From positions 2,412-41,351 of the forward strand of contig WTGW01000142.1 of NCBI GenBank assembly GCA_011523395.1: a stretch of 38,940 bases of DNA. The letters run 5' to 3'. Of the stretch, positions 13,563 to 23,879 are shown in pieces. The position numbers and the translations under genes are program-made. Within the stretch, counting starts at the first letter, position 1. Every line of letters starts with the position of its first letter. The notes beneath the pieces are model-generated. The model searched no databases. It was not told the DNA's origin and worked only from the letters and a program-made list of their open reading frames with translations. The stretch is from Acidimicrobiia bacterium. GTDB taxonomy: Bacteria > Actinomycetota > Acidimicrobiia > Spongiisociales > Spongiisociaceae.

Positions 13563-15890
13563 TTAGCCGAGGCCGAGAGATCGGGCGAGGAACGTTGCCA
13601 TCTCGGCTCGGGTGACCGCTTGGGCGGGGCAGTAGCGGAGGGGACTCGCCTGGCATCCGGTGGTGATTTCGGCCGCCCATAGGGCGTCGATGTCTGCCCG
13701 GTGGACGCTTCCACCGGTGTCACCGAATCCTGCCGGCGGGGCGGCTCCGAGGTCAAGGGCGCGCACCAGGAACGACGCCATCTCACCCCGTGTAACCGGG
13801 CGGTCAGGGCAGAAACGTCGTGGCGGCCCGACTTCGCATCCCCGGGTGATGCGGAGTTCCGCCATCCGCGCCACGTAGGGAAGCCACCACTCATCCGTGT
13901 CCACATCGGCGAACCTCGACGTGGAGACCGCGAGTGGCTCGCGGCCGTCGATCGCCCGCACCAGCCACACCGCCATGGCCCATCGCTCGATCGCGTCGTT
14001 GGGACAGATCCGGTCGTCAGCGCATTCGGTGCCGTCCAGGATCCCCCTCTCGGCCAGGGCTTCCAGCGCGGCCTCATGAGTGTTCCCCATCGCGTCTACG
14101 AACACTGCACAGGTCCCGACCCCGGTGCTCGGCAGGCTCTCGACCATGGACCGGGGCACGCACACTTCGTTGCCGGAGAGATCGAGGCGGACGAGTTCGC
14201 TCAGCCGGCCGACCTCCTCAGGTACCGACCCCGTTAAGCCGTTGCCGAACGGGCCGCTCAGGTCGATTCCGGTGACCCGTCCCTCGGAGTCCGTGGCCAC
14301 ACCGTGCCATCTGCTCGGGTGCGCGCCGGTCTTCCAGCCCCACGCGTTGAACCAGCCGTCCCCGCCCGTGCCGTTGAACAACGCTACGAGCGCGGCGCGA
14401 TCTGCCGCATGGACGGGAATGCCCGGCCCGGCGGGACCGTAGGTGTAGTTGGCGGCGGCGTTCAGGAGCGTCCTGCGGAGACGGTTGCAGGATCCGAGGA
14501 GGATGATGTCGGATCTGTTGGCGATCATCGAGAACGTGATCATCTCGCCGCCGGCCGCCACGGCCGTCCCGGCCAGGGCGATCACATGGTCCAGGCTGCC
14601 CGTCTTGGCCTTCACTGTGAGGAGTTGGTCCTCGTTTCCCCTGGACCGGACCGGGTGGCAGTTCCTCAGAGTTCCCGTCTCGCCCGCCACAGCCAGGCCC
14701 TCCACCAGCGGCGAGCCAGGACCCGCATCCACCAGCAATCCGGCGACAGCCTCGCACGTGAGGCGGTTGGAGTAGGACAGGCCCGAGCCATCGGCGATCA
14801 GCAACCTGTCCGCCGCCGAGCCGAGCTTGCCACGCAGGATGGCGTCAACGGTGGCCACGGCAGAGGCGCGGTCCGAGCCCCCGCCCCGACGGCCGATCTC
14901 CTTGAGCAGCATCTCGGCGATGGTGTTGTCGGAACGGGTCAGCATGCGAGCCACGATCTCGGAGAGGGGCGGAGAATCGACCGCCCCGAGCATGGTCCGC
15001 TCGCTCGGAACCGGCGCCACGCCCGCTACAGGCCGCCGCGTGATCACCATCCCCCGTGCCTCGAGGAAGTCGTCGAACACGGAAGCGGCGTGCTGGGCGG
15101 GCTGTGCCGCTCGCACGCTCTGGCGGCGGCCCGCGGAGAATACCGAGCTGGAATATCGCGAGAACCCGCTGTTGAGGAGCAGGGCCGACAGTGGTCCGGA
15201 GTGGTTGGCGGTCACGAAGGAGCGTTTCCACACCGGGTCCGCCTCGCCGGCCAGGACCTCCCCGGAGTAGTCGCGTTCCCTGTCGGGGTACCAGGACTCG
15301 TCCCCCACCAGCCGGCCCTCGATCCGCCTGATACCACGGGCGGAGAGGGCGTCCATCACCTGGTTGGCCAGGCCCGTTATGTCGGTGTGGGCCACCGGCA
15401 CCTCGTAGCGGTTGACGTAACGGGGCGTGGACAGCACGGGATCGCCCTGCCCGACCAGGTACACGTCGCCCGTCAGGACTCCGTCGGCGATCGACTCGAG
15501 GTCCTCGGTCCGGACGAACACTTCCGTGGTGAAGACCTCGTCCGGGCTCATCACCTCGAAAGCGGCCGCGGCAGTGGCCACCTTCATCAAGGACGCGGGG
15601 GTGAAAGCCGTCCCGGACCGCGACTCGAAGATCGGATCGCCATCCAGCATCACCGAGAGGCACATCGAGTCGGGAGCCTCTCGCAGGGAGAGCACGGCCG
15701 CGAACTCCCTCGCCAGCCGATCCCTCTCCGCCTGGGCCACCGGTGCTGACCCATCCGCCGGCGCGCCGTACGCGGCCCCAGGTGGTATGACCAGAGTGAC
15801 GGCCAGCACCAGCGCGACGGCGCCCAAGCCTCCGGCCCGTCGATCCCCCCACCGCCGGACGCCCCGAGCCGCAATAGTCCGCTTCATCAT
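13563..15890 (-). CDS. PBP4-type D-Ala-D-Ala carboxypeptidase fused to leucine-rich and SLH repeats
   Basis: A 775-residue exported protein. Residues 1-42 are a signal peptide (Arg-rich start, hydrophobic core, AYGA). Residues 45-485 are a peptidase S13/DacB domain with the three active-site motifs: SLMK (Ser100, Lys103), SDN (320-322) and KTG (429-431). It should trim or cleave peptidoglycan peptides outside the cell. Residues 496-590 form a short leucine-rich region (ALVALFNGTGGDGW, then VTGIDLSG, LTGSVPEE and LVRLDLSGNEV). Residues 597-775 contain three S-layer-homology-like repeats, two with the FCPDRPVTRGEMASFL or YCPAQAVTRAEMATFL pattern and a paired Cys. The SLH part likely anchors the enzyme to a wall polymer. 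This fusion is unusual for PBP4 proteins, which normally end after the KTG domain. Confidence 0.88.
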   Translation of the reverse strand: MMKRTIAARGVRRWGDRRAGGLGAVALVLAVTLVIPPGAAYGAPADGSAPVAQAERDRLAREFAAVLSLREAPDSMCLSVMLDGDPIFESRSGTAFTPASLMKVATAAAAFEVMSPDEVFTTEVFVRTEDLESIADGVLTGDVYLVGQGDPVLSTPRYVNRYEVPVAHTDITGLANQVMDALSARGIRRIEGRLVGDESWYPDRERDYSGEVLAGEADPVWKRSFVTANHSGPLSALLLNSGFSRYSSSVFSAGRRQSVRAAQPAQHAASVFDDFLEARGMVITRRPVAGVAPVPSERTMLGAVDSPPLSEIVARMLTRSDNTIAEMLLKEIGRRGGGSDRASAVATVDAILRGKLGSAADRLLIADGSGLSYSNRLTCEAVAGLLVDAGPGSPLVEGLAVAGETGTLRNCHPVRSRGNEDQLLTVKAKTGSLDHVIALAGTAVAAGGEMITFSMIANRSDIILLGSCNRLRRTLLNAAANYTYGPAGPGIPVHAADRAALVALFNGTGGDGWFNAWGWKTGAHPSRWHGVATDSEGRVTGIDLSGPFGNGLTGSVPEEVGRLSELVRLDLSGNEVCVPRSMVESLPSTGVGTCAVFVDAMGNTHEAALEALAERGILDGTECADDRICPNDAIERWAMAVWLVRAIDGREPLAVSTSRFADVDTDEWWLPYVARMAELRITRGCEVGPPRRFCPDRPVTRGEMASFLVRALDLGAAPPAGFGDTGGSVHRADIDALWAAEITTGCQASPLRYCPAQAVTRAEMATFLARSLGLG

Positions 15891-18970: not shown

Positions 18971-18999
18971 TTGACACCAGCAGGGGTGGGTGCAAACAT
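18971..18999 (+). promoter_or_regulatory. Candidate promoter of the riboswitch-OsmC transcript
   Basis: A perfect TTGACA -35 (18971-18976) is followed after 17 bp by AAACAT (18994-18999), a weak -10 preceded by TGC. Transcription would start close to 19006, just before the SAM aptamer. Confidence 0.45.
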
Positions 19000-19014
19000 C
19001 CCGTCAACAACGCG

Positions 19015-19116
19015 CTTATCAAGAGCGGTGGAGGGACAGGCCCTGTGAAACCGCGGCAACCGATCCGTTCGGTGCCAATGCCTGATCGATGAGGCAGCCT
19101 GCGGCGGACTCCGCTG
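19015..19116 (+). ncRNA. SAM-clan riboswitch aptamer, SAM-I/IV-like
   Basis: The conserved S-box core is plain: CTTATCAAGAG, GGTGGAGGGA, CCCTGTGAAACC, GGCAACC and GGTGCCAA. P1 pairs 19015-19020 with 19088-19093. P2 pairs GCGG 19025-19028 with CCGC 19051-19054, with an inner AGGG/CCCT stem. P3 is ACCGA-TCCGT-TCGGT (19059-19073). The usual P4 of SAM-I is missing. Instead a hairpin GCGG-CGGACT-CCGC (19101-19114) follows P1, and its loop CGGA complements TCCG in the P3 loop. That extra loop-loop pseudoknot and the lack of P4 are features of SAM-IV and SAM-I/IV riboswitches. The predicted ligand is S-adenosylmethionine, and the downstream gene is OsmC-like. Confidence 0.88.
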
Positions 19117-19163
19117 TCGGCGCTCACTACGGAGCGCGTAACGACAAAGGAGAGCCGCTGACC

Positions 19164-19283
19164 ATGTCCCTTCACCGAACCCCCTTCGGCCCGATGCCGG
19201 CCCGCGCCTTCCCCGTCTGGGCCATGCGCGCCTGTCCGTGCTCTCGGGTGAGTAGCCCGGGACAGCCTGGCCTGTCCCGCTGA
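19164..19283 (+). CDS. 39-residue leader ORF with Cys codons between riboswitch and OsmC gene
   Basis: AAAGGAGAG (19146-19154) precedes ATG 19164. The encoded peptide begins MSLHRTPFGPMPARAF and contains two near-adjacent cysteines (ACPCSR) at codons 24 and 26. The second Cys codon overlaps the first base pairs of the long attenuator-like stem at 19240. The tail of the ORF runs through the inner hairpin. Such short ORFs with Cys codons before sulfur genes are known as Cys-responsive leader peptides in actinobacteria. The good SD supports translation; coding conservation cannot be tested here. Confidence 0.45.
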   Translation: MSLHRTPFGPMPARAFPVWAMRACPCSRVSSPGQPGLSR

Positions 19284-19301
19284 TCGCCACCACCCGAGAG
19301 C
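19240..19301 (+). promoter_or_regulatory. Attenuator-like nested hairpin in the OsmC leader
   Basis: GCTCTCGGGTG (19240-19250) and CACCCGAGAGC (19291-19301) form a perfect 11-bp outer stem. Inside it CGGGACAG (19258-19265) and CTGTCCCG (19272-19279) form a perfect 8-bp stem. Competing pairings exist: CTGTCC at 19232-19237, overlapping the first Cys codon, can pair with GGACAG 19260-19265, and GAGAGC 19150-19155, part of the leader SD, can pair with GCTCTC 19240-19245. Ribosome position on the Cys codons would therefore decide which fold forms. No U-tract follows, so the effect could be on Rho-dependent termination or on translation. Confidence 0.6.
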
Positions 19302-19380
19302 GAACACCGGCATCACGAACCAGCCCTTCCGGAGTGTCGACCCGCACCCGGACGGGGGCACGACAAACGAAAGGACATCG

Positions 19381-19902
19381 ATGACTACCACAACCGAACA
19401 GCAACTCAACGACGTAGATCTGCAGGCGGTCGGCGCCCTCGTCGCCGCCGTGGCGGAGGACCCGGAGCAGGGCCAGACGGAGTGGCAGGCCACCGTGAAC
19501 TGGACGGGCGCCTTCCGCTCCGAGGTCTCGATCCGGGACTTCGAGCCGATCCCGTCCGACGAGCCCGCCGGCCTCGGCGGCACCGACACCGCCCCCAATC
19601 CGGCGGAGCAGGTGCTCGGAGCGCTGGGCAACTGCCTGGCGGTCGGATACGCCGCCAACGCCTCGGCGGCCGGAGTCGAGATCAACGACCTCAAGATCGA
19701 AGTCAGCGGCGATCTGGACCTGCATACGTTCCTGGGCCTGAAGCCCGGCCACGCCGGCTACGGGGGCCTGTCGGTGAAGGTCCACCTGGACTCCGACGCC
19801 ACGGAGGAGCAACTTGCCGCCCTTCACGACAAGGTCGTCAACAGCTCCCCGGTCGGGCACACGCTCAGCAACCCGGTACCGCTGAACGTAGAACTGGCCT
19901 GA
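19381..19902 (+). CDS. OsmC-family protein with a single Cys
   Basis: A 173-residue OsmC/Ohr-superfamily protein. The fold signature includes the N-terminal beta stretch WQATVNWTGAFRSEVSIRD and the helix NPAEQVLGALGNCLAVGYAANAS with the peroxidatic-type Cys85. At the position of the second cysteine the usual CPV is SPV (Ser155-Ser156, in SSPVGHTLSNPV), so a normal intramolecular disulfide cannot form. AAAGGA lies five bases before the ATG. The gene follows a SAM-type riboswitch and a Cys-codon leader, implying a role in sulfur or thiol metabolism rather than generic peroxide defence. It might carry a sulfur group or reduce hydroperoxides with an external thiol; this is inference. Confidence 0.88.
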   Translation: MTTTTEQQLNDVDLQAVGALVAAVAEDPEQGQTEWQATVNWTGAFRSEVSIRDFEPIPSDEPAGLGGTDTAPNPAEQVLGALGNCLAVGYAANASAAGVEINDLKIEVSGDLDLHTFLGLKPGHAGYGGLSVKVHLDSDATEEQLAALHDKVVNSSPVGHTLSNPVPLNVELA

Positions 19903-22915: not shown

Positions 22916-23018
22916 CGCCGAGACCGCGCGACCGGTTGGTTCGACAGACTGAGGACGCGATACGCCTTAACGGGTGATCATCTATCGTTCCGGACGACCG
23001 CGGATAAGGAGGCTCGGG

Positions 23019-23879
23019 GTGGAGAAGCTCGTACAACCTGGCTGGCTCGAAGAGAACCTGGCGGCCCCCGATCTACGCATCCTCGATTGCTCGGTGGTCT
23101 TCGAGAGACCGGGCGGCGTGCTCAACATCGAGAGCGGCCGGGAGCGATGGGATCAGGAGCACATACCTGGAAGTGTCCATGTCGATCTCATGACCGAACT
23201 AGCCGACCAGACCGCGGAACTCCAGTTCATGATGCCGTCCACCGATCAGTTCGTGTCGGTCATGGAGTCTGTCGGGGTCGGCGAGGGCACCAGGGTCGTC
23301 CTCTACGACTTCGACATGAACATGTGGGCCGCCAGGGTGTGGTGGATGCTCCACTCCATGGGCTTCGACGAGGCCGGGGTTCTCGATGGCGGGCTGAGGC
23401 GCTGGAAGGCGGAAGGCCGGCGCGTGACCACTGACCCGGCACCGCGCCATCCGAAGGCCGCGTTCACCGTTCGACCCCGACCGGGTACCTTCGTCGGCAA
23501 AGAAGAGGTGCTCGCCGCGATCGAGGAGGAAGACACCGCCCTCGTCGACGCGCTGCCCGCGGCCCACTACGACGGAGCGTTGCAGTTCTACAGGCGTCGC
23601 GGCCACATCCCTACCGCCGTCAACGTGCCGGCAGGTTCCCTCGTGGATGGCGACACCCACGCCTATGCCGGCATCGATGAGTTGCGAAGCCGGGCTGCCC
23701 CCGCACTCGAGACCGGGTCCAGCCGGAAGATCGCCTACTGCGGAGGAGGCATCTCCGCCGCCAGCACGGCCTTCGCTCTCTCGCTCCTGGGTGTCGAGCA
23801 GGTTTCGATCTACGACGCCTCGATGGGCGAATGGGCGAATGACCCTTCACTGCCCCTCGAGGACCCATCGTCCGGATGA
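23019..23879 (+). CDS. Rhodanese-type sulfurtransferase (SseA-like)
   Basis: A 286-residue protein with two rhodanese domains. The N-terminal domain (about 1-135) begins LVQPGWLEENLAAPDLRILDCS and has the HIPGSVHVDL motif. The C-terminal domain has the active-site Cys241 in YCGGGISAAS, the family's persulfide-forming loop. It should move sulfane sulfur from thiosulfate or 3-mercaptopyruvate to a thiol acceptor. GTG 23019 is chosen because AAGGAGG lies six bases upstream; the longer frame would swallow that site. It is the first gene of the long plus-strand run; M20 hydrolase begins 34 bp later. The CGGG loop differs from classic rhodanese (CRKG) and mercaptopyruvate types (CGSG). Confidence 0.88.
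   Translation: MEKLVQPGWLEENLAAPDLRILDCSVVFERPGGVLNIESGRERWDQEHIPGSVHVDLMTELADQTAELQFMMPSTDQFVSVMESVGVGEGTRVVLYDFDMNMWAARVWWMLHSMGFDEAGVLDGGLRRWKAEGRRVTTDPAPRHPKAAFTVRPRPGTFVGKEEVLAAIEEEDTALVDALPAAHYDGALQFYRRRGHIPTAVNVPAGSLVDGDTHAYAGIDELRSRAAPALETGSSRKIAYCGGGISAASTAFALSLLGVEQVSIYDASMGEWANDPSLPLEDPSSG

Follow-up and report, generated by a model that had tools for sequence, protein, structure and literature searches.

The window analysed here, a stretch of 38,940 nucleotides of contig WTGW01000142.1 from an Acidimicrobiia bacterium (assembly GCA_011523395.1), contains a gene coding for an OsmC-family protein. An earlier note, made from the sequence alone, had proposed that the leader of this gene carries a SAM-clan aptamer followed by a short ORF with two Cys codons and an attenuator-like structure. 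The features recognized in the leader are listed below, where uORF stands for the leader ORF, SD for Shine-Dalgarno sequence and A to E for the strands of the putative switch.

18971-18999, forward strand: candidate promoter, TTGACA (18971-18976), 17 nt, AAACAT (18994-18999)
19013-19095, forward strand: SAM-I (S-box) riboswitch aptamer (RF00162, 69.8 bits, E 1.8e-14)
19115-19146, forward strand: expression-platform hairpin TGTCGGCGCTC / GAGCGCGTAACGACA, immediately 5' of the uORF SD
19146-19152, forward strand: SD of the uORF, AAAGGAG
19164-19283, forward strand: leader peptide ORF MSLHRTPFGPMPARAFPVWAMRACPCSRVSSPGQPGLSR, 39 codons, ATG at 19164, stop TGA at 19281-19283
19233-19235, forward strand: control codon -3 (UGU, Cys)
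19239-19241, forward strand: second Cys codon, UGC (TGC)
19240-19250, forward strand: switch-stem strand A, GCTCTCGGGTG, encoding Ser-Arg-Val
19258-19265, forward strand: strand B, CGGGACAG, pairing with C and partly able to pair with A instead
19272-19279, forward strand: strand C, CTGTCCCG; many other loci, but not this one, have an anti-SD-like CTCCT here
19281-19288, forward strand: strand C', beginning at the uORF stop codon, partner of E
19291-19301, forward strand: strand D, CACCCGAGAGC, complement of A
19309-19315, forward strand: strand E (GGCATCA), partner of C' with one bulge
19370-19375, forward strand: SD of osmC
19381-19902, forward strand: gene for the OsmC-family protein, the regulated gene (Pfam PF02566, E 6.1e-17)

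The aptamer covers the full length of the RF00162 model and scores above its gathering score of 44.4; by this curated threshold it is a SAM-I member, for which SAM binding and repression are predicted. The covariance-model search of Rfam, which the earlier note had suggested as a check, has in this way borne out the aptamer, although its extent, put there at 19015-19116, had to be corrected to 19013-19095, the last 20 bases being expression platform. A consensus promoter scan did not call the box at 18971-18999 because its -10 element is weak. TTGAC(A) is found at a like distance 5' of the aptamer in nearly all of the SAM-bearing leaders inspected, and this conserved distance suggests that aptamer, uORF and osmC are probably carried on a single transcript. 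Taken as a whole, the window leader has a better folding energy than shuffled sequences (z = -4.3).

A DNA search of 99 relatives retrieved the full window leader, at 81-91% identity, from eight further genomes belonging to the genus and family; in a ninth relative the match covers the 5' three quarters of the leader, and elsewhere the matches are to the aptamer region. The stem is exactly kept in the aligned relatives and the peptide varies. Frame and length of the uORF are conserved in 9/9 close leaders, each having 40 codons when the stop is counted, and the SD and start codon are likewise placed in 24/24 platform-bearing tandem leaders, in agreement with the SD and the 39-codon ORF with two Cys codons (TGT at 19233, TGC at 19239) first read from the window. 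Two remoter relatives keep the Cys-rich end alone (SCCCSRV and CHGHMCMCMTSSRV), the second of them 5' of metY. The alignment across relatives, also suggested as a check, thus shows that the sulfur codon, the frame and the stem are kept, with compensatory changes. We also looked for leaders bearing the aptamer and lacking the ORF, the sulfur codon or the hairpins, and found that all are kept together in the aptamer-bearing relatives of the window leader. From the conservation of frame and codons we infer that the uORF is translated from 19164.

A wider search used the two arms of the stem as a pattern (CTCTCGGGTG N25-55 CACCCGAGAG) that contains no Cys codon. Within the class, 35 of 395 genomes matched it; in a collection spanning 84,980 species, 39 contigs did, most of them from MAGs of Acidimicrobiia. 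Matches in sense orientation have a Cys/Met-rich in-frame ORF directly 5' of the stem (MCMCM, CMCC, MMMM, CCCGCC etc.) and then a sulfur gene, and six matches without such an ORF (L078, L079, L086, L091, L098, L108) were left out as chance. A covariance model built from 32 non-redundant pattern-derived copies located the uORF-stem element in 62 of the 138 genomes of the order. Applied to a phylum sample of 396 genomes, it produced only weak additional matches, among which the two read out (L141, L142) do not obey the codon rule described below, and a spread of the element beyond the order was rejected on these grounds; both were left out together with four other weak or incomplete model matches (L179, L186, L189, L190). 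The retained copies are oriented in agreement with the gene 3' of them, with the aptamer and with the model score, which is strand-specific. None of the covariance models of Rfam 15 matched 19096-19400 up to E = 5, and the uORF-stem part was therefore rejected as a known RNA family. Judging from these sequence comparisons, it is an undescribed RNA control element placed before sulfur-metabolism genes in uncultured actinobacteria.

The third codon before Ser-Arg-Val (codon -3) encodes Cys or Met without exception, with UGU in 71 and AUG in 22 of the 93 copies. The rule holds in 57/57 non-redundant copies (UGU 43, AUG 14), in 32/32 of the non-redundant copies found with the pattern, from which this codon was excluded (Cys 25, Met 7), and in 45/45 aptamer-bearing copies checked on the sequence; in the genes found at these loci, Cys and Met jointly account for 2.4% of codons. 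Since UGU and AUG have no base in common at any of the three positions, what is constrained is the amino acid rather than the RNA. Because Met replaces Cys at this position in other loci, the element would sense the charging of Cys and/or Met, and the idea of the earlier note that one leader reads two sulfur signals in series, SAM and Cys, is supported and has to be widened. Of the two Cys codons that had been proposed as the sensor, the first (19233) is the invariant Cys/Met codon, whereas the second (19239) is not conserved across the family. We rejected the possibility that leaders without the aptamer carry Met codons and those with it Cys codons only, as the two groups do not differ (Met p = 0.85, Cys p = 0.15, codon -3 p = 1.0).

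Cys at codon -3 is encoded solely by UGU and never by UGC, whereas the genes of these loci use 31% UGU and 69% UGC among Cys codons (p about 2e-21); at codon -1, UGC alone occurs for Cys. A slowly read or rare codon is a plausible explanation for the exclusive use of UGU at -3, and we offer it as a guess. Codons -3 to -7 of the reading frame are enriched in Cys and Met, the other two frames having little of this, and a frame-0 stop is found 7-18 codons past the Ser in 56/57 copies, the stops of the other frames being scattered. A conserved peptide beyond the Cys/Met-SRV end was rejected, with no amino-acid conservation there. The variable sites are spread evenly over the codon positions (25/23/22), which suggests that the peptide as such is probably not the relevant product and that the ORF resembles a sensor ORF rather than one encoding a functional peptide.

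In the window, the outer stem A:D, to which the earlier note had given 11 bp, consists of 11 perfect pairs (19240-19250 / 19291-19301) and encloses an inner hairpin B:C of 8 bp (19258-19265 / 19272-19279). The core pairs of A:D are present in 52-57 of the 57 copies, and their changes are compensatory: UA has become CG in nine copies, and GC has been replaced once by AU (Arg to Gln) and once by CG (Arg to Pro). Both sides have changed in 5/7 pairs of B:C and in 4/7 pairs of C':E, the latter helix being bulged in the window. The alternative pairing A:B is 89% paired and shows no changes on both sides. In 50/57 copies, the fold of lower energy is A:D enclosing B:C. When six bases of A were masked, to mimic a ribosome stalled at codon -3, B:C and C':E formed and D was left free in the folding of examples such as L103. 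It is also conceivable that A:D and C':E are present together, as an H-type pseudoknot.

The arms A and D form a nearly invariant inverted repeat of 10-11 bp, as would a DNA operator bound by a protein repressor, next to which the ORF would be incidental. Such an operator is hard to reconcile with an arm spacing that ranges from 25 to 55 nt, with a codon rule specific to strand and frame, and with compensatory changes in the arms, the commonest change in A keeping the Ser (UCU to UCC); we hold it to be extremely improbable.

The question of how the switch would act on gene expression was addressed from the sequence 3' of the stem. In the 57 copies there is no T-run longer than four bases 3' of D, and no terminator-like site was found in the window leader. 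An intrinsic terminator after A:D was thus rejected for want of a U-tract, which makes an output at the level of translation more likely than intrinsic termination. The attenuator-like structure that had been proposed is retained as a set of mutually exclusive, covarying helices; as it has no intrinsic terminator, "attenuator" may here mean control at the translation or Rho level.

A purely translational variant is classical SD sequestration, in which C would act as an anti-SD, freed on read-through by A:B pairing and caught by B on stalling. The CTCCT seen in strand C at many loci fits this scheme, as do the extent of A:B pairing and, in sulfurtransferase (sseA)-like, ssuA and DUF4395 loci, a pairing of 6-12 bp between C and the gene SD that co-varies with the SD. 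Matched C:SD pairs were better than mismatched ones in a permutation control that does not correct for the relatedness of the loci (22 of 5000 permutations). However, in the osmC loci, that of the window included, matched pairs mostly show no advantage over mismatched ones, folding predicts no sequestration of the osmC SD in the window, and the A:D stem would be left without a role. A general anti-SD role of C was consequently rejected, as it holds in some gene classes only, and we view this purely translational variant as possible, though doubtful.

Regarding the genes controlled, the first gene 3' of the element codes for OsmC (two subfamilies), rhodaneses of two-domain size, a small rhodanese, DUF4395, O-acetylhomoserine sulfhydrylase MetY (TIGR01326), O-succinylhomoserine sulfhydrylase MetZ (TIGR01325) or the sulfonate-binding protein SsuA (TIGR01728). 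An OsmC gene is indeed the downstream gene in the window, as had been noted, but the element is not specific to it, being found before metY/metZ, rhodaneses and ssuA; by gene annotation, it marks a sulfur regulon. The genome of the window possesses a second tandem leader with SAM-I aptamer and Cys/Met uORF (L021:853-1814, G000:C207; MCCPG-SRV), 5' of an OsmC gene of another subfamily. Elsewhere, a 173-aa protein without Pfam match is encoded directly 3' of a copy of the element (L089:61-579) and is a candidate unknown sulfur gene. The window also encodes, three genes after osmC, a rhodanese (22974-23879) whose nearest NCBIfam model, below cut-off, is 3-mercaptopyruvate sulfurtransferase and whose relatives bear the Cys/Met leader element elsewhere, as well as a D-Ala-D-Ala carboxypeptidase (S13) fused to S-layer homology repeats (13563-15890).

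A same-strand SAM-I aptamer ends 55-152 nt 5' of the element in 48 of 96 copies. Conversely, 48 of the 150 SAM-I aptamers listed for the order have the element 3' of them and 102 are aptamer-only; those read belong to other leaders, with the aptamer directly 5' of the gene or of a terminator-like hairpin. The platform GGCGCTC...GAGCGC is common to nearly all platform-bearing tandem leaders and to several aptamer-only ones. The distance from P1 to the AUG of the uORF is 61-79 nt in the 24 platform-bearing tandem leaders, and that from P1 to the gene AUG is 53-63 nt in aptamer-only leaders sharing this platform. As the uORF starts where the regulated gene starts in aptamer-only leaders, SAM probably gates the translation of the uORF, a reading based on position.

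Alternatively, the attenuator could be real and the SAM riboswitch independent of it, acting for example by premature termination at its own platform hairpin, so that the two signals add, as in the tandem attenuators of Salmonella mgtCBR. Folding with P1 formed or broken leaves the accessibility of the uORF SD unchanged (mean 0.37 both ways), and a SAM-dependent occlusion visible by folding was therefore rejected; moreover, a 5' extension of P1, ACGCGCTC, can pair with GAGCGCGT in competition with P1 as well as with the platform hairpin. In other families of the order, the SAM-I leaders of metY (L192-L195), which have no leader peptide, bear terminator-like hairpins, indicating that the riboswitch platform differs between families. 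These three observations suit an independent riboswitch. Against it stand the coincidence of the uORF start with the gene-start position of same-platform leaders, the platform hairpin of the tandem leaders, in which no U-tract was found, and one genus where the platform is absent and the uORF SD abuts P1. Weighing both sides, we consider independent action unlikely.

Other arrangements of the same parts were encountered. Four aptamer-only leaders (L031, L032, L034, L038; metY, metH-like) have other short SD-bearing ORFs right behind the platform, without the stem element, that of L038 reading MVHTVEPNRCTGECAR. At three head-to-head loci (L168, L036, L103; G040:C247, G020:C30, G097:C2), a SAM-I aptamer points one way and a Cys/Met element the other, 99-140 nt apart.

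Another role for the uORF, devoid of sensing, would be to feed ribosomes to osmC by termination-reinitiation, as is reported for the B12-riboswitch uORF of ppe2 in M. tuberculosis (PMC11260477). In the window, the uORF stop lies about 98 nt 5' of the osmC start and osmC has its own SD, and reinitiation would leave the invariant Cys/Met codon and the helices unexplained, which makes this role very unlikely.

The leader has several features of an attenuator. Its ORF is translatable, with frame, SD, start and stop all conserved; codons for the amino acid to be sensed hold a constant position immediately 5' of the switch stem; covariation supports mutually exclusive helices (A:D, B:C, C':E); and the downstream genes fit that amino acid (MetY, MetZ, SsuA, rhodanese, OsmC). 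The intrinsic terminator of the transcription type is lacking. We propose, as a likely reading, a two-stage sulfur sensor in which a SAM-I stage gates the uORF of a Cys/Met leader-peptide attenuator. Its observed parts are the aptamer, the ORF, the invariant Cys/Met codon, the conserved frame and stop, three covarying helices, the sulfur regulon and the position of the uORF start. In the first stage, the SAM-I platform ends at the uORF SD, and binding of SAM would lower uORF translation. In the second, scarcity of Cys-tRNA (Met-tRNA in other loci) would stall the ribosome at the control codon, three codons 5' of A, and mask A; D would then be free, B:C and C':E would form and osmC would be ON. 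With Cys/Met plentiful, or the uORF kept untranslated by SAM, A:D should form and osmC should be OFF.

In its full form, the proposal describes a ligand-gated attenuator: the SAM riboswitch would control the translation of the Cys/Met-sensing peptide, not the gene, and would constitute an AND-type gate, which turns ON only when both SAM and charged Cys/Met tRNA run low, coordinating the sulfur regulon across an Acidimicrobiia order, with elongator Met-tRNA among the sensed species. We lean towards this form, with due caution. If it is true, one RNA separates two questions, the sufficiency of SAM and that of Cys/Met.

A pathway is commonly viewed as regulated either by a leader peptide or by a riboswitch; here both stand in series in one leader, at narrow spacing, in many genera and before sulfur genes. 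The AUG codons at position -3 suggest a leader peptide reading methionine codons, for which we know of no well-described example. OsmC proteins, usually called peroxidases, gain a firm context in sulfur metabolism. The earlier note had presented the combination as lacking a well-described case for an OsmC gene, and a search of the open-access literature returned no published leader that places a SAM riboswitch and an amino-acid leader peptide in series.

Compared with SAM-I (S-box) leaders (RF00162), the aptamer is alike, but the first ORF behind the platform is here a leader peptide and not the regulated gene. In Actinobacteria, Cys leader peptides with a short Cys-codon ORF 5' of sulfur genes and ribosome pausing as the sensor have been described (Seliverstov 2005, PMC1262725), as have polycysteine leaderless uORFs in mycobacteria (Canestrari 2020, as cited in PMC9031893). 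The present element shares with both the short Cys-codon ORF before sulfur genes and, as proposed, the pausing ribosome as sensor; it differs in the SD of its uORF, in Met codons that stand in place of Cys or beside it, and in a SAM riboswitch 5' of half of the copies. Its stem is strongly conserved, whereas no conserved hairpins were reported at mycobacterial cys leaders (PMC1262725). The LEU element of leuA also combines a leader ORF with a possible pseudoknot, for another amino acid, and mutation of its Leu codons was reported not to matter (PMC1262725). The uORFC-8-2 motif 5' of cysS in Rhodobacterales likewise has tandem Cys codons in a uORF overlapping the switch stem; unlike the present element, it has an intrinsic terminator with a U-run, UGC as the dominant codon, one gene, another bacterial class and no riboswitch (PMC8632094).

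Closer to the SAM stage, the B12 riboswitch of M. tuberculosis ppe2 also acts first on a short uORF, but with another ligand and reinitiation coupling, and the accessible part of that study reports no amino-acid sensing by the uORF (PMC11260477). In Pelagibacter, osmC is likewise under a SAM riboswitch and induced by sulfur limitation, although the aptamer is of another class (SAM-V) and the accessible part of the source does not mention a leader peptide (PMC5069961). Salmonella mgtCBR, called a singular example, has tandem attenuators responding to two signals in one leader, one of them tRNA charging read through a leader peptide, as proposed here; it differs in having two leader ORFs (ATP, proline) and no riboswitch (PMC3641672). 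Set against these systems, the kinds of control are themselves already known, and it is the RNA element family and the in-series arrangement that we regard as new.
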